Of a stretch of 64,000 nt of DNA, positions 8,751-15,431 are shown in pieces (position 1 is the first letter of the stretch; each line of letters opens with the position of its first letter). The translations under genes were made by a program, and so were the position numbers. The stretch is from an uncultured Alphaproteobacteria bacterium (GTDB taxonomy: Bacteria; Pseudomonadota; Alphaproteobacteria; Micavibrionales; CSBR16-224): the NCBI GenBank assembly GCA_950054485.1, contig CATLPD010000001.1, forward strand, positions 1 to 64,000, written 5' to 3'. The notes beneath the pieces were generated by a model, which was given only the letters and a program-made list of their open reading frames with translations, was not told where the DNA came from and searched no databases.

Positions 8751-8767
8751 TAGGCACGATTCTTGCA
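8751..8767 (+). promoter_or_regulatory. Sigma-54 (-24/-12) promoter of the flagellin-like gene
   Basis: The sequence TAGGCACGATTCTTGCA contains GG and GC exactly ten bases apart and agrees with the RpoN consensus TGGCACG-N4-TTGC at all but one conserved position. It lies about 106 bases upstream of the flagellin-like start codon, with predicted transcription starting near 8778 and a leader of about 95 bases. Sigma-54 control is common for flagellar genes of Caulobacter-like alphaproteobacteria. Confidence 0.75.
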
Positions 8768-8812
8768 AATATTTGCTATAGCCTGTATCGCCTGCGGTAC
8801 GGGCGCATGCAC

Positions 8813-8837
8813 CCTGCAAAATATAGTGTTTTGCAGG
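8813..8837 (+). promoter_or_regulatory. Hairpin in the predicted 5' leader of the flagellin-like mRNA
   Basis: A perfect inverted repeat, CCTGCAAAA / TTTTGCAGG, with 9-base arms and a 7-base loop. It lies downstream of the sigma-54 promoter and 35 bases before the start codon. No T-run follows, so it is not an ordinary terminator. It could affect mRNA stability or translation, as leader structures do for flagellin mRNAs controlled by FlbT-type regulators. That role is inference. Confidence 0.5.
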
Positions 8838-8872
8838 CAGCGGCGCATGTGTAATGAAAAGAATTGTTAAAT

Positions 8873-10411
8873 ATGGCGTTTGATAAAAACATTGCCATCG
8901 GAGCCTCCCTGCGCAGTCAATTGCTTGCGATTGACAGGACTGCGCGTAACCTGAGTATTTCCTCGGGACGTTTAGCCACGGGTAAAAAAGTGAATTCAGC
9001 CATCGAAAACGCACCCAGTTTTTTTGCGGCGCGTGAACTGCAAAATCTTGCCGAAGATTACAGTCGATTAACAGATCGTATGGGGCAAAATATTCAAACC
9101 ATCAAAGAGGCTGATAGCGGACTTGGCGGAATTACCAAATTGTTACAGCTTGCAGAAACCCTCGGGGTTGATGCTTTGGAAGCCATCGGCGGCGCGAATT
9201 CTTTGACCGGTTTGTCATTGCCCGAGCTGATAGCAGCCGAAAACCCAAATGCCTATTGGCAACTGGATAATTCCAGCGGGGCAAACAATCAGGGGACCAT
9301 TGGCGCCAGTGTAAACGGAAGTCCGGGCACCGGTGTAACCTTTAATCAACCCGCCATATATCCGGGCGGAGGAACCGCAGCGCGCTTTGATGGGACAAGC
9401 AATGCGATTATACAAATCCCCGACAGCGCCCAGATTAATACAACCCCGCGTCCGGAACGCACAGTCGAGCTGACCTTTAATGCAAATACGACAGCAGGCC
9501 GTCAGGTCTTATACGAGGAAGGCGCCACCGTAAACAGCCTTGGCATTTATATTGATAACGGCGAATTATATGTTTCAGGACGCGATAACGGTGACTGGGG
9601 CCCTCTTGGTCTAAGTCAACCGATTGTTGCCGGAGAAACCTATCACGTAACGATGGTGCTTGATCAGCCGAATGGCGAATTTCGCGGCTATGTCAACGGC
9701 CAACAAATGTCGACGGTTGGGGTCGTGTCTATCCCCCTGTCCAGTCATAGCGGTAACATCGCCATCGGCGGCACGCAAGATGGTCTGGTGTTCCATGATG
9801 GCCCGGACGGCGCTGCGGGTAAAAACTTTGACGGTCTGATTTCTGACGTTGCCCTGTACAATCGTGTTCTGGATGATGCCACAATTTTACAGCATGGCGA
9901 AGCAACACAGGACCCGGCCACAATTGAATACCAAAGAGATTTTAACGTTTTGATGGACCAGATAACACAACTGGCGCAGGATTCATCCTATCGCGGCACA
10001 AATCTGCTATTTAATGACAGTATCGTATCTGTCTTTAACCCCGATGAATCTTCTCAGTATACAACAGCTGGCAGTGATTTTACCGCCGAAGGGCTTTCGC
10101 TGGACACCTTAAGTCTGGGCAGCGCAAACCAGATTACCACAACCCTTGATGCTATTCGAAACGCGATTCAAAAAGTGCGCAGCTTCCGCGGCTCTCTTGC
10201 CACCGATATAAATGTTATTCAAAACCGGATTGACTTCACACAGTCTTTCGAAAACACCCAGATTGAAGGGGCCGATAAACTGACCCTTGCCGATTTAAAC
10301 GAGGAAAGCGCAAAGCTTTTGACCAGCCAGACCCGCCAGGCCATTCAAATGGATACACTGACCAATTCCGTGCGTGGAAGGGCATTGGCAGACCTTCTTT
10401 TTAACAGCTAA
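8873..10411 (+). CDS. Flagellin-like protein with an inserted LamG/concanavalin-like domain
   Basis: A 512-residue protein with flagellin ends. The N-terminus (about residues 1-105) has the coiled helix with NLSISSGRLATGKKVNSA and the FFAARELQ pattern. The C-terminus (about 420-512) has the matching helix SFRGSLATDINVIQNRIDF and ends in ALADLLFNS. Between them, residues about 125-345 form a beta-rich LamG/ConA-like domain: NAYWQLD, then AARFDG, LGIYIDNGELYVSG, YHVTMVLD, RGYVNGQ, IAIGG, FDGLISDVALYNRVL. Flagellin sequence resumes at about 352 with FNVLMDQITQLAQDSSYRGT, so the insert splits the N-terminal D1 region rather than the usual variable D2/D3 site. I use the ATG at 8873; an in-frame TTG three codons earlier is possible. 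It probably forms a surface filament displaying a sugar-binding-type fold. Confidence 0.88.
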   Translation: MAFDKNIAIGASLRSQLLAIDRTARNLSISSGRLATGKKVNSAIENAPSFFAARELQNLAEDYSRLTDRMGQNIQTIKEADSGLGGITKLLQLAETLGVDALEAIGGANSLTGLSLPELIAAENPNAYWQLDNSSGANNQGTIGASVNGSPGTGVTFNQPAIYPGGGTAARFDGTSNAIIQIPDSAQINTTPRPERTVELTFNANTTAGRQVLYEEGATVNSLGIYIDNGELYVSGRDNGDWGPLGLSQPIVAGETYHVTMVLDQPNGEFRGYVNGQQMSTVGVVSIPLSSHSGNIAIGGTQDGLVFHDGPDGAAGKNFDGLISDVALYNRVLDDATILQHGEATQDPATIEYQRDFNVLMDQITQLAQDSSYRGTNLLFNDSIVSVFNPDESSQYTTAGSDFTAEGLSLDTLSLGSANQITTTLDAIRNAIQKVRSFRGSLATDINVIQNRIDFTQSFENTQIEGADKLTLADLNEESAKLLTSQTRQAIQMDTLTNSVRGRALADLLFNS

Positions 10412-10418
10412 ATCCGGA

Positions 10419-10988
10419 TTAGATATCAGACAGTGCCTTTATAATATCTTTGACTTTTAAGACTTCAGCTTTTGGCACCGACTTGATGGCGGCTTTCGGC
10501 ATAGCTTTCGCACTGGCCTCTTTCGGATCCTGAACGATAACACGCCCGCCCTTTTCAAAAATGGATTTCAGGCCATTTGCCCCATCAGCATTGGCGCCGG
10601 ACAAGACAATACCCACAAGTTTTTCGCCGCATGCATCCGCAGCAGTTTCAAACAAAACATCAATCGATGGCCGTGAAAACAAAACAGGCTCCTCAACTGA
10701 AAGGGATATTCTATTGTTTTTTTCAACCATCATATGATAATCAGGCGGCGCGATATAAACATAGCCCGGTTCGATCCGTTGTTTATCGTCAACCTCGATC
10801 ACTTTTACTTTTGATTTTTCATTCAACAGACCTGCCATCAGGCTTTTTTTGTCCGGCGGCAGGTGAACAACCACAAAAACAGAAAAATCAATTTCAGCCC
10901 TAAGGCTTGAAATAATTTCGCCCAACAGTTCGAATGACCCCGCCGAACCGCCGATAACAATTGATTTTGGCTTATTATCGATTGTCAC
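10419..10988 (-). CDS. cheB: CheB-type protein-glutamate methylesterase without a receiver domain
   Basis: A 189-residue protein covering only the CheB catalytic domain. The Ser-His-Asp triad is visible: Ser15 in GGSAGS, His42 in VVVHLPP, and Asp135 in LSGANADGA. The SRPSIDVLFETAA segment is typical. Full-length CheB has an N-terminal receiver that controls the esterase, and it is absent here. The gene overlaps the end of cheR by 4 bases (ATGA), so both are translated together, downstream of a large hybrid kinase. No chemoreceptor, CheA or CheW gene is in the window, so this is probably a signalling module other than classical chemotaxis. Confidence 0.92.
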   Translation of the reverse strand: MTIDNKPKSIVIGGSAGSFELLGEIISSLRAEIDFSVFVVVHLPPDKKSLMAGLLNEKSKVKVIEVDDKQRIEPGYVYIAPPDYHMMVEKNNRISLSVEEPVLFSRPSIDVLFETAADACGEKLVGIVLSGANADGANGLKSIFEKGGRVIVQDPKEASAKAMPKAAIKSVPKAEVLKVKDIIKALSDI

Positions 10989-11818
10989 GTTACTCTCTCC
11001 GGCTTCTTCTGATAAATTTTTTCATTACGGTTAAAGTCTGTGAATTCATTCGCATGTTTGGAAAAATGTATAGTTTCCTTGGCACCAAGCCCCAGAAATC
11101 CGTTATAACGCAGCGCCCCTTCAAACAAACCAAACGCACGGTCCTGTAAATCACGATTAAAATATATCAAAACATTGCGACAGGACACAAGGTGAACCTC
11201 GGCAAAGACATTATCTGTAACTAGACTATGATCAGAAAAAACAGCGTATTTTTTAAGGTCTTTAAAGAAAACGGCCTTGCCGTATGCCGCGGTATAATAA
11301 TCGGAAAGCGAACCTTTACCGCCGGCATCGTGATAATTCTTACTATATTCTTTAATCTTCTGTGTGGAATAAATCCCCTTTTCAGCAACTTCCAAAGCTT
11401 CGCTACTGATATCAGTACCATAGAAAATTGTGCGTTCTAGAATGCCTTCCTCGTAGAACAAAATCATCAGTGAATATAGTTCCTCGCCCGTGCTGCACCC
11501 CGCAACCCAGACCTTCAAAGAAGGATAAGTTTTAAGGTGCGGGATTACTTCTTCCCTTATCGCTTTAAAGTAAGACGGGTTGCGAAACATCTCGGTCACC
11601 TGAACCGTCAGGTAGGATAAAATTTTATGCGCAACCTTGTCGTCACGCAGAATCACATCCTGCAGCATCGAATAGCTGGAACAATTAAAATCTTCGCATG
11701 CTTTACTCATACGTCTTTTTATCGACGCCATGGCATAATTGCGAAAATCAGAATGATATTTATGATAGATTGCCTCCAGCAAAAGCCGCAGCTCTATGTC
11801 TTCGATTGTGTCTTGCAA
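10985..11818 (-). CDS. cheR: CheR-type protein-glutamate O-methyltransferase
   Basis: A 277-residue S-adenosylmethionine-dependent methyltransferase. The N-terminal helical CheR_N domain (IYHKYHSDFRNYAMASIKRR) is followed by the Rossmann-type catalytic domain with SAM motif I in VWVAGCSTGEELYSL and the VSCRNVLIYF motif. The start is a TTG at 11818, supported by a GAGG Shine-Dalgarno sequence 8 bases upstream; no ATG fits. It lies 17 bases after the hybrid kinase and overlaps the CheB gene by 4 bases, giving the order kinase-cheR-cheB. Its methyl-acceptor is not evident in the neighbourhood. Confidence 0.93.
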   Translation of the reverse strand: MQDTIEDIELRLLLEAIYHKYHSDFRNYAMASIKRRMSKACEDFNCSSYSMLQDVILRDDKVAHKILSYLTVQVTEMFRNPSYFKAIREEVIPHLKTYPSLKVWVAGCSTGEELYSLMILFYEEGILERTIFYGTDISSEALEVAEKGIYSTQKIKEYSKNYHDAGGKGSLSDYYTAAYGKAVFFKDLKKYAVFSDHSLVTDNVFAEVHLVSCRNVLIYFNRDLQDRAFGLFEGALRYNGFLGLGAKETIHFSKHANEFTDFNRNEKIYQKKPERVT

Positions 11819-11835
11819 TTTTTATACCTCGATAT

Positions 11836-14800
11836 CTATCTGGGCATCCATACGCGTAATAAAGACAATAGTTTCTCGACATCAAGGGGCTTGGTCATAT
11901 AATCGTTAGCCCCCGCCTCAAGACATTTTTGCTGATCATCCTTCATAGCTTTTGCTGTCAAAACGATAACAGGAAGATTATTCCAAGCCTTGTTCTGGCG
12001 TATTTTGCGTGTTGCGGTTAACCCATCCATTTGAGGCATCATAACATCCATCAGAACGATATCATAGTTTGCTTCTTTGGAGCCTTCCGTTTTCTCAAGC
12101 GCTTCTAAAGCCTCTATACCATTTTGAGCAACATCAACAATAGCTCCGCGCGGTTCCAGAATGCTGGTCAGGGAATAAACGTTGCGCATGTCATCTTCCA
12201 CCACAAGAATGCGCCGTCCATCAAGGACGCTATCGCGGTGTCGCGCCTTCTGAAGCATGTCCTGTTGCTCCTTGGAGAGGTCCGAGACGACCTGATGCAA
12301 GAACAAGGTAACCTCGTCCAATAAACGTTCCGGGGAACGAGCACCCTTTATTATTATTGATTGGGAATATTTACGCAGTTTCCGTTCTTCTTCTTTTGTC
12401 AATTTTTGACTGGTATACACAATGACCGGCGGGAATGAATATTCATCTTCCTCGCTTAAGGTTTTCAAAAGCTCGAAACCTGATGCATCCGGCAAATTTA
12501 AATCAAGAACCATGCAATCGAATGTTTCTTTTTTAAGTTTATTCAAACAGGCTTTTGCAGATTTTGCCCCGACAGCCTCGACACCATTTGCACCTAACAG
12601 GTTTTTCATGATGTTTAACTGTACATTATCATCTTCAACGATCAAAAGACGTTTCATACGCTTTGTAATACGGGTCTCGAGGTCTTTCAATGTATCCTGA
12701 ATTGTTTCACGTTTTACAGGCTTTAAATCATAACCTGCAGCACCAAGGGACAGGGCTGTATTGGAATAATCTTCCGCCGAAATGATATGAACCGGTATAT
12801 GGCGGGTTTTAGGATCACGCTTAAGACGGTCCAAAACCGAAAGGCCGGAACCATCGGGAAGACCAATATCAAGAATGACGGCATCTGCTCTATATTTAAA
12901 GGCCAGATACATCCCCTCTTCTGCTGTGGTCCCTATAAGAGCCTGAAAGCCCATCTCATGCATCATATCGCGCAGAATGGCAGCAAAAGCCTCGTCATCT
13001 TCAATAACCAGAATTCGGTGGACACCGTCTACAAGATCGTCTCTGTCATCATCTATTGAAGAATTAACCTCTCTGGGTGTATCCAGGATATCGACATCAT
13101 CAAAATCAGCGAATTCTTTATCATCATCCAGATCAACATTTGTGTTGATTTGTTTTACATTTTCTCCGTCGTAGTGTGTCGGAATAACAATGCTGAAAAC
13201 ACTTCCCTTGCCGCTCTCGCTTTCCAGAGAAATTTCACCGCCTAACAGGTGCGTCAATTCACGAGAAATCGAGAGACCAAGTCCTGTGCCTCCAAATTTT
13301 CTGCTGGTTGTGCCATCCGCTTGCTTAAAAGCTCCAAAAACATCTTTTTGCTTTTCCAGATCAATACCTATACCGGTATCCTCAACATAAAATTTGATCT
13401 GGCCTTTCGGCACGGCAGAACATTGAACCCCAAGCTTTACATGTCCCGTTTCTGTGAACTTGCATGCATTGGATAAAAGATTCTTTAAAATTTGTTCCAG
13501 ACGCTTTGAGTCCGTATATATCTTTTTCGGGCATTTGCTCTCGATATCGATAACCAGCTTTATGCCTCTTTTATCTGTCACCGGTGCAAATATATTTTGC
13601 ATCTCGTCTGTGACTTTTTTGACATATAGGTTCTCAGGCTGAATTTCCATGTATCCGGCTTCGATTTTTGACAGATCAAGAATATCATCAATCAAGTTCA
13701 ATAAGTCATGACCTGCAGAGTGGATTGTCTCGGCATATTTGACCTGATCATCCGTCAGGTTTTCTTCTTTGTTTTCTGAAAGGATTTTTGCAAGGATCAA
13801 TGTCGAATTTAGAGGCGTGCGCAATTCATGGCTCATGTTAGCCAAAAAGTCTGATTTATGCTGACTTGCTTTTTCAAGGTCATTTGCACGCAGTATTAAA
13901 TCAGCTTTTGCCTGTTCAAGCTCGGTCTTTTGAACTTCCAGCATCTGCGCTTGTTCTTCAAGTTGGGTGTTTGTTTGTTCGACTTCGGCCTGCTGCAGCT
14001 CGAGACGGCTTTGCGATTCCTGCAAGGCCTTACTCTGTTCTTCCAACTCTTCATTGGCCACCCGCAGCTCTTCACTCTGGGCCTGCAACTCTTCCGATTG
14101 GCGCTGCGTTTCTTCCAACAGCCTCTGAAGGTTGCTGCGATAATCCGAAGACCTGACAGTTACACCGATAAGCTCGGAAACCCGATTCAAAACCTCAACG
14201 GAGTTGTCATCATACTTTGATGCAAAGGCAAGTTCAAAAAGTGCAACGGTGCGCCCCTCCACAACCGCGGGCACAATAACGGCCCTTTCAGGCTTCGATT
14301 TAACAAGGGTTGACCCAAAATCGAGAAACCCATCTTCCACATCATCAATAATTATAACGCGCTTTTCTTTTGCAGCCTGACCGGCAAGCGTTTCTCCGTC
14401 TTTGAATTCATCGATGCCGGTTTCAGGGGTCAGCCCATAGCTTGCCACTCTTTTAAAAAACTTGCCATCGCGCATAAAAAAGGCGCCGCCAGCAGCATCG
14501 AGATAAGCTGATAAAAACCTGAGTACGTTCTCTCCGACTTCTTCAATGCTTTTTTCACCTGATATTTCGTTGTTAATTTCTGTGTAGGCTGTCTTGATCC
14601 ATTCCTCGCGACGGATTGCGACCTTGTTTCTAACATAGAAAAAACCCACGATTGCCATGACCCAAATACTTGACAGACCCATAACGCGGTTAAGCTGTGC
14701 AACCTTCTGGCTGACCCCGGGATCATCCGTGACAAAACCGAGCACCATAAAAAAAGTTGCGCCGCAAGCCGTCAAAACCGGAACAGTCGGAACCCATGCC

Positions 14801-15006
14801 ATCAAAGACATCGTTAGGGGAATAACATATAAAACCCAAACCGCCACACCCAGAACGGTTTGATAGTCTGCAAGAAAAATCCCAAAAGTAATAAGGGCTA
14901 ATAAAGTATAAAGCACCGGTCCGGGGATAAATATCCCCTGTGGCCCCTTCTTCAGCTTTTGTATATTTCTGCCTTCACTGTCTGCATTTTTATTGTTTTT
15001 GTGCAT
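11836..15006 (-). CDS. Membrane hybrid histidine kinase: TM-GAF-coiled coil-HisKA-HATPase-REC-REC-REC
   Basis: A 1056-residue hybrid sensor kinase. Residues about 28-125 hold four likely membrane helices, followed by a GAF-like sensor domain (about 150-285) and a long Gln/Glu-rich coiled coil (about 295-385). The kinase core has His393 in MSHELRTPLN, then HATPase motifs (N-box LLSNACKF, G1 VEDTGIGID, G2 GGTGLGLSIS). Three receivers follow, at about 675-790 (VILDIGLPD), 795-915 (MVLDLNLPD) and 940-1056 (VLMDVMMPQMDG). No HPt domain is present in the protein, but a divergent HPt gene starts 89 bases away. The kinase lies upstream of cheR and cheB in one operon, a known non-chemotaxis arrangement. 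Confidence 0.93.
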   Translation of the reverse strand: MHKNNKNADSEGRNIQKLKKGPQGIFIPGPVLYTLLALITFGIFLADYQTVLGVAVWVLYVIPLTMSLMAWVPTVPVLTACGATFFMVLGFVTDDPGVSQKVAQLNRVMGLSSIWVMAIVGFFYVRNKVAIRREEWIKTAYTEINNEISGEKSIEEVGENVLRFLSAYLDAAGGAFFMRDGKFFKRVASYGLTPETGIDEFKDGETLAGQAAKEKRVIIIDDVEDGFLDFGSTLVKSKPERAVIVPAVVEGRTVALFELAFASKYDDNSVEVLNRVSELIGVTVRSSDYRSNLQRLLEETQRQSEELQAQSEELRVANEELEEQSKALQESQSRLELQQAEVEQTNTQLEEQAQMLEVQKTELEQAKADLILRANDLEKASQHKSDFLANMSHELRTPLNSTLILAKILSENKEENLTDDQVKYAETIHSAGHDLLNLIDDILDLSKIEAGYMEIQPENLYVKKVTDEMQNIFAPVTDKRGIKLVIDIESKCPKKIYTDSKRLEQILKNLLSNACKFTETGHVKLGVQCSAVPKGQIKFYVEDTGIGIDLEKQKDVFGAFKQADGTTSRKFGGTGLGLSISRELTHLLGGEISLESESGKGSVFSIVIPTHYDGENVKQINTNVDLDDDKEFADFDDVDILDTPREVNSSIDDDRDDLVDGVHRILVIEDDEAFAAILRDMMHEMGFQALIGTTAEEGMYLAFKYRADAVILDIGLPDGSGLSVLDRLKRDPKTRHIPVHIISAEDYSNTALSLGAAGYDLKPVKRETIQDTLKDLETRITKRMKRLLIVEDDNVQLNIMKNLLGANGVEAVGAKSAKACLNKLKKETFDCMVLDLNLPDASGFELLKTLSEEDEYSFPPVIVYTSQKLTKEEERKLRKYSQSIIIKGARSPERLLDEVTLFLHQVVSDLSKEQQDMLQKARHRDSVLDGRRILVVEDDMRNVYSLTSILEPRGAIVDVAQNGIEALEALEKTEGSKEANYDIVLMDVMMPQMDGLTATRKIRQNKAWNNLPVIVLTAKAMKDDQQKCLEAGANDYMTKPLDVEKLLSLLRVWMPR

Positions 15007-15095
15007 GTTTTACCAATTCATATTGTTGTTTTATTATTAAATCAAATGTAGGCTATGTACAAGACTTAACACCTCATACGCACAAGAGAGGAAAT

Positions 15096-15431
15096 GTGAC
15101 AAAAAATAACGGAATAAATGATTTTCTAAACTCTCTACCTGCCGCGAAAAGACAGGACATTCTGGAACAATTTCGCGAAAGCTTTGATGATCACCGTCAA
15201 AAATGCATTTCAGCATTCAATAGCAAAGATTTTAAAGCCCTAAGAGCCGGTGCGCATGACCTAAAAACTCTTTCGCGATTGATCGGATCTAAAGATCTGG
15301 GCGACATGTGTGAAAAAATCGAAATCGGCGCCTTGAACGAAGATCCTGATTTATACGCCCTTCAAGAAAATTTTTCCAGAACCAGCGCGGATGTTGATAG
15401 CGAACTTCATAAATTCAGACTAGCTGAATAA
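15096..15431 (+). CDS. Stand-alone HPt phosphotransfer protein
   Basis: A small helical protein of 111 residues. The start is a GTG at 15096 preceded by AGAGAGGA; the upstream part of the open frame is Cys/Phe-rich and looks non-coding. The HPt signature AHDLKTLSRLIG contains the phosphorylatable His and the following Lys of the HxLK motif. It is transcribed divergently from the three-receiver hybrid kinase, which lacks its own HPt. The protein could therefore relay phosphoryl groups from that kinase to another regulator; this partnership is inferred from position only. Confidence 0.82.
   Translation: MTKNNGINDFLNSLPAAKRQDILEQFRESFDDHRQKCISAFNSKDFKALRAGAHDLKTLSRLIGSKDLGDMCEKIEIGALNEDPDLYALQENFSRTSADVDSELHKFRLAE

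Follow-up and report, generated by a model that had tools for sequence, protein, structure and literature searches.

Flagellins are usually pictured as an invariant D0/D1 core that carries variable cargo at D2/D3 alone. Among the closest described systems, the Caulobacter proteins FljK, FljL, FljM and FljN (PDB 8uxj, 9cem, 8uxn and 9cef) represent the alphaproteobacterial form of this core; they belong to a multi-flagellin system with sigma54 and FlbT, and are only 270-273 aa long, without an outer domain and with a short loop between helices ND1a and ND1b. Functional domains inserted in flagellins are exemplified by the flagellinolysins, in which a metallopeptidase located in the central hypervariable region has been shown on the filament (Eckhard et al. 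2017, PMC5595980). In the hypervariable regions of flagellins, the same study recorded 61 types of domain; its top-ten list does not include LamG, and the words 'lectin' and 'laminin' are absent from its main text. The full-text-searchable literature, which did not include Fields et al. 2024 (flagellar outer-domain clustering), yielded no relevant paper on a flagellin with a LamG, Laminin_G_3 or concanavalin A-like domain.

The protein described here is encoded in a 64,000-nucleotide stretch of DNA (the window) from an alphaproteobacterium placed in the Micavibrionales, a relative of the bacterial predator Micavibrio. With the Caulobacter flagellins it shares the D0/D1 core and a multi-flagellin setting that includes sigma54 and FlbT, and with the flagellinolysins the presence of an inserted domain, but its insert is a LamG domain that lies before ND1b. 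The favored reading, given a probability of about 0.6, is that of an accessory flagellin whose LamG domain would be displayed at the filament surface, binding glycans or surfaces.

Domain order of the LamG flagellin

The predicted architecture, a flagellin core with a LamG insert, is well supported by profile matches and structural models, and comprises the following features.

8873..10411, + strand: LamG flagellin gene, a single open frame of 512 aa (ATG at 8873; stop codon ends at 10411)
8873..9193, + strand: D0 N-terminal helix, spoke and helix ND1a, residues 1-107 (Flagellin_N at 19-101; model helices at 11-36 and 47-107)
9221..9910, + strand: inserted LamG/ConA-like jelly-roll domain, residues 117-346 (PF13385 match at 3.8e-15; isolated-domain model; Foldseek ConA-like matches)
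9914..9982, + strand: helix ND1b, residues 348-370 (model; the Caulobacter flagellin match begins at residue 353)
10019..10069, + strand: D1 beta-hairpin, residues 383-399, with no domain inserted downstream of it (model and flagellin alignment)
10124..10402, + strand: CD1 and CD0 helix, residues 418-510 (Caulobacter match and model)

In Pfam, Flagellin_N (PF00669) covers residues 19-101 (1.3e-8; 35.5 bits against a cut-off of 26.6) in a match that is interrupted after ND1a, at position 95 of the 139-position model, and Laminin_G_3 (PF13385) covers residues 177-338 (E 3.8e-15; 56.8 bits against a curated cut-off of 27.6). Against solved structures, residues 353-497 match FljN 113-259 (7.7e-8); a second alignment, weak taken alone, pairs residues 20-92 with FljN 19-91. 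Since these two segments are far apart in the LamG flagellin, approximately 240 residues have been added between them, compared with a gap of ~21 residues in FljN itself. The C-terminal D1/D0 region (353-497) also matches PRK12688. Flagellin_C (PF00700) falls below threshold in the window protein and is reached at E<=0.01 in five of its 22 LamG flagellin relatives, while Flagellin_N and Laminin_G_3 are both found in all 22 aligned LamG flagellins; the NCBIfam flagellin matches of the window protein lie far under their curated cut-offs. Two other identities were considered and rejected. The protein is not a flagellinolysin, as it contains no metallopeptidase domain (Flagellin_N and Laminin_G_3 are its sole Pfam matches at E<=1), nor is it the hook-junction protein FlgL, for which the best match in the genome is a separate gene (C1:263223-264185, itself scoring under the curated cut-off), with the window gene absent among the matches.

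The full-length AlphaFold2 model, made from an alignment of 22 LamG flagellins (mean pLDDT 86.9, pTM 0.57), predicts in order a helix at 11-36, ND1a at 47-107, the beta strands of a jelly roll at 127-329, ND1b at 348-370, a hairpin at 383-399 and CD1/CD0 at 418-510, and the LamG domain in isolation (residues 117-346, 36-row alignment) is predicted with a pLDDT of 95.9 and a pTM of 0.93. Foldseek searches with this domain retrieved ConA-like jelly rolls (TMq up to 0.72), including clostridial neurotoxin receptor-binding fragments, serum amyloid P and Limulus pentraxin, and searches with the full model additionally retrieved arabinanase AbnA domain 4 and trans-sialidases, all of which represent fold-level resemblance at roughly 10-20% identity. 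The neurotoxin fragments, although the top Foldseek matches, give no grounds for a toxin identity: they are ~10% identical, and the ConA-like jelly roll is the only common feature. A sequence profile search of the PDB matched an S-layer-domain protein (4qvs, 3e-12), pentraxins and the N-terminal domains of sialidases. Together, these results bear out the first-pass annotation of this gene, which had proposed flagellin ends (now Flagellin_N at 19-101 and the FljN match at 353-497) surrounding a LamG/concanavalin-like segment at about 125-345, with flagellin helix resuming at about 352; structure prediction and fold search agree on the ConA-like jelly roll, and the limits given were right within a few residues.

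Insertion site, conserved residues and spread of the LamG domain

In the short alphaproteobacterial flagellins L131, L133 and L136, ND1a is joined to ND1b via ~8 residues in the alignment. This empty site is the exact place of the LamG domain in the window flagellin, and the insert therefore splits D1, as had been claimed from the letters of the gene. Among 68 flagellins with both core ends, a biased sample collected by similarity to the window LamG flagellin, the site is empty in three and holds ~100-380 residues in the remainder, and none of the 68 has a domain inserted after ND1b. Many alphaproteobacterial flagellins contain inserts of 100-500 aa at this site, and further alphaproteobacterial families share the pattern of an insert before ND1b, including the 760-790-aa flagellins of one genus. 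The latter (L139-L146) are recurrent within that genus, in large alphaproteobacterial genomes, and contain an insert of ~500 aa. The first-pass placement of the insert off the usual D2/D3 site consequently stands with respect to position, but not as a peculiarity of this protein, as the junction is used by many alphaproteobacterial flagellins: the insertion site is ordinary for the lineage, and the LamG cargo is the unusual part. A classical D2/D3 outer domain was likewise rejected, given an insert between ND1a and ND1b and no added domain after ND1b.

Two conserved positions stand out within the LamG domain.

9515..9520, + strand: conserved acidic pair E215-E216 of the RQVLYEEG motif (E215 is 99% conserved across 102 LamG domains; the motif belonged to the search patterns, which in part builds in its conservation among the distant group)
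9746..9748, + strand: conserved H292, a candidate ligand or metal residue (99% across 102 LamG domains; outside the search pattern)

N189 and H292 are also retained in the LamG domains of non-flagellar proteins, and because they are kept beyond flagellins, their conservation would point more to a role in ligand or metal binding than to one in filament packing. LamG/ConA-like domains elsewhere include some that bind proteins and some that are purely structural. With respect to a phage origin of the domain, no match was found among phage records.

The genome (2.28 Mb) encodes three flagellins by Flagellin_N: the window protein, another with LamG on contig C3 (45% identity to the window protein) and, on contig C4, a 392-aa paralogue whose ND1a/ND1b site holds a Flagellin_IN motif (hook-IN motif). 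A search for flagellins with LamG inserts, which the first-pass annotation had suggested, recovered spanning examples from 21 of the 94 genomes in the relatives set, belonging to three families, and by a visual count of the table each of these 21 genomes also has one or more flagellins that lack LamG. The LamG flagellin gene is adjacent to a LamG-free flagellin gene in several genomes and directly follows the hook gene flgE in L013 and L014, positions that argue for a filament subunit. The matches of the alignment-based scan include several Micavibrio sp. assemblies and one labeled Micavibrionaceae, the order Micavibrionales being a placement made in the analysis; a scan of genome contigs with a single-protein query gave no matches. 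No spanning match at E<=1e-30 was found outside Micavibrionales in 385 class genomes and 399 phylum genomes, in scans that were tuned to the LamG subfamily of the window flagellin and that other LamG flagellins can escape (e.g., L106, L109 and L134). A contig filed as Cytophagales (L054) contains a LamG flagellin that groups among Micavibrionales sequences, together with a second flagellin; its label is probably a binning error.

The LamG tree unites the Micavibrionales flagellin domains (33) and RTX-protein domains (12) in one clade (support 100/99). Within it, RTX and flagellin domains are interleaved, with four RTX and nine flagellin domains (13 rows) grouping at 100/96, nested in a larger, flagellin-dominated group (99/83). 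A second, separate LamG clade contains the flagellins L106 and L109 (both labeled Rickettsiales) and L134, in which Flagellin_N is unbroken, so that LamG occupies the classical D2/D3 site. The first two (L106:3164-6514 and L109:3272-6664) are ~1120 aa long, with RTX repeats and two LamG domains, and the third (L134:1045-3012, - strand) is a 656-aa flagellin from another alphaproteobacterial genome. Judging from the separate clade and the different site, alphaproteobacterial flagellins acquired LamG independently at least twice, at two sites. In the core tree, most LamG flagellins stand apart from the flagellins with IN inserts (IN group 96/91). One flagellin adjoining a LamG flagellin (L015:3056-4372, - strand) contains a different, Pfam-unassigned insert at ND1a/ND1b and nests among LamG flagellins, a placement that suggests that LamG may be replaceable by another domain.

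Proposed function and alternative readings

Two sequence features lie upstream of the gene.

8752..8767, + strand: sigma54-type (-24/-12) promoter-like site AGGCACGATTCTTGCA (score 21/22; 105 nt upstream of the start codon)
8813..8837, + strand: perfect 9-bp inverted repeat CCTGCAAAA-N7-TTTTGCAGG within the presumed 5' leader

A sigma54-type score of at least 21 is reached in 1 of 1500 random 350-nt segments of the same sequence. Sigma54-type sites also occur upstream of at least seven other LamG flagellins (L017, L018, L020, L022, L023, L025 and L028); in the same search, the C3 paralogue and several other LamG flagellins showed no such site upstream. The genome contains genes for RpoN and FlbT, the latter a protein that in Caulobacter acts on a flagellin leader. 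The presumed 5' leader (8775-8875) forms strong predicted hairpins (-38.4 kcal/mol, z -2.5). No other flagellar structural gene is adjacent to the window LamG flagellin gene; the genes beside it (10419-15431) encode CheB and CheR, a GAF hybrid histidine kinase that bears three receiver domains, and an Hpt protein. The C3 LamG flagellin, too, has a response regulator and hybrid kinases as neighbors (L008:7216-12896).

In the proposed mechanism, the gene would be transcribed from the sigma54-type promoter late in flagellar assembly, and the exported LamG flagellin would co-polymerize with the LamG-free flagellin of the same cell. The jelly roll replaces the short ND1a/ND1b loop with the D0 and D1 helices retained, and the model topology suggests that LamG would protrude at the filament surface from the D0-distal end of D1; the direction of projection is not fixed by the full model (pTM 0.57), and, within the protofilament, the ND1a/ND1b end is near the next subunit. 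Binding of glycans or other surface ligands by LamG would make the filament adhesive. Comparative evidence makes such binding more likely, given a LamG subfamily common to RTX proteins and the independent recruitment of LamG in other flagellins, and the binding reading is strengthened because two of the LamG-bearing RTX proteins (L074 and L069) also contain C-type lectin domains (Lectin_C).

The main alternative, judged unlikely, is that LamG is a structural outer domain without an external ligand: neighboring domains would pair into a sheath or a screw-like surface, and the filament's waveform and its swimming through viscous media would be tuned in this way. The outer domains of Sinorhizobium meliloti, EHEC, EPEC and Achromobacter flagellins dimerize or tetramerize and modulate motility (PMC8931119), and in sister flagellins the same position is filled by unrelated IN-motif inserts, as though bulk alone were enough. 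However, N189 and H292 are common to the LamG domains of non-flagellar proteins, and LamG recurs in other alphaproteobacterial flagellins at another site and in company with RTX repeats. It is less probable still, and quite doubtful, that the LamG flagellin is a minor component near the hook or at the tip, or assembles poorly, because a D1 insert would disturb the 5-start contacts. ND1a and ND1b do form inter-subunit contacts in Bacillus subtilis filaments (PMC5643327), and the window gene lacks adjacent flagellar structural genes; yet large inserts are widespread at this site in alphaproteobacterial flagellins, including the recurrent 760-790-aa proteins, so that filaments evidently tolerate them, the FlgL-like gene is separate, and LamG flagellin genes elsewhere adjoin other flagellins or flgE. 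The reading of residues 125-345 as an ordinary D2/D3 region without a lectin-like fold can be dismissed, given the PF13385 match (3.8e-15), the isolated-domain pTM of 0.93 with ConA-like structure matches, and an insert that precedes ND1b.

Comparison with known systems

The window flagellin carries its lectin-like module inside D1, at a site used by a broad set of alphaproteobacterial flagellins. A wider proposal has about an even chance of being correct: outer domains of alphaproteobacterial flagellins would have a second docking site, so far overlooked, at the ND1a/ND1b junction, and Micavibrionales would have gained adhesive filaments through LamG exchange between flagellins and RTX adhesins. 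The Micavibrio lineage includes a surface-attached bacterial predator. If glycan binding is true, the filament of Micavibrio relatives would serve both as a propeller and as a grip for surfaces or other cells, flagellum-mediated attachment to cells or particles would become open to direct test, and the ND1a/ND1b junction would provide a natural site for displaying domains on filaments.

Three further groups of proteins resemble the window flagellin in part. The alphaproteobacterial flagellins of NCBIfam PRK12688 and PRK14708 and the C4 paralogue of the same genome share the ND1a/ND1b insertion site and the same split of the N-terminal core, but the insert there is either a Flagellin_IN motif or a domain that has no name, and not LamG. 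The Micavibrionales RTX proteins (L074, L069, L030, L031 and L115) carry domains of the same LamG clade that are ~39-49% identical to the insert, but they are large proteins with RTX repeats and, in two cases, C-type lectin domains, and lack flagellin ends. The flagellins L106, L109 and L134 likewise combine a flagellin with one or two LamG domains, but at the classical D2/D3 site, from a separate LamG clade and, for L106 and L109, with RTX repeats in addition.
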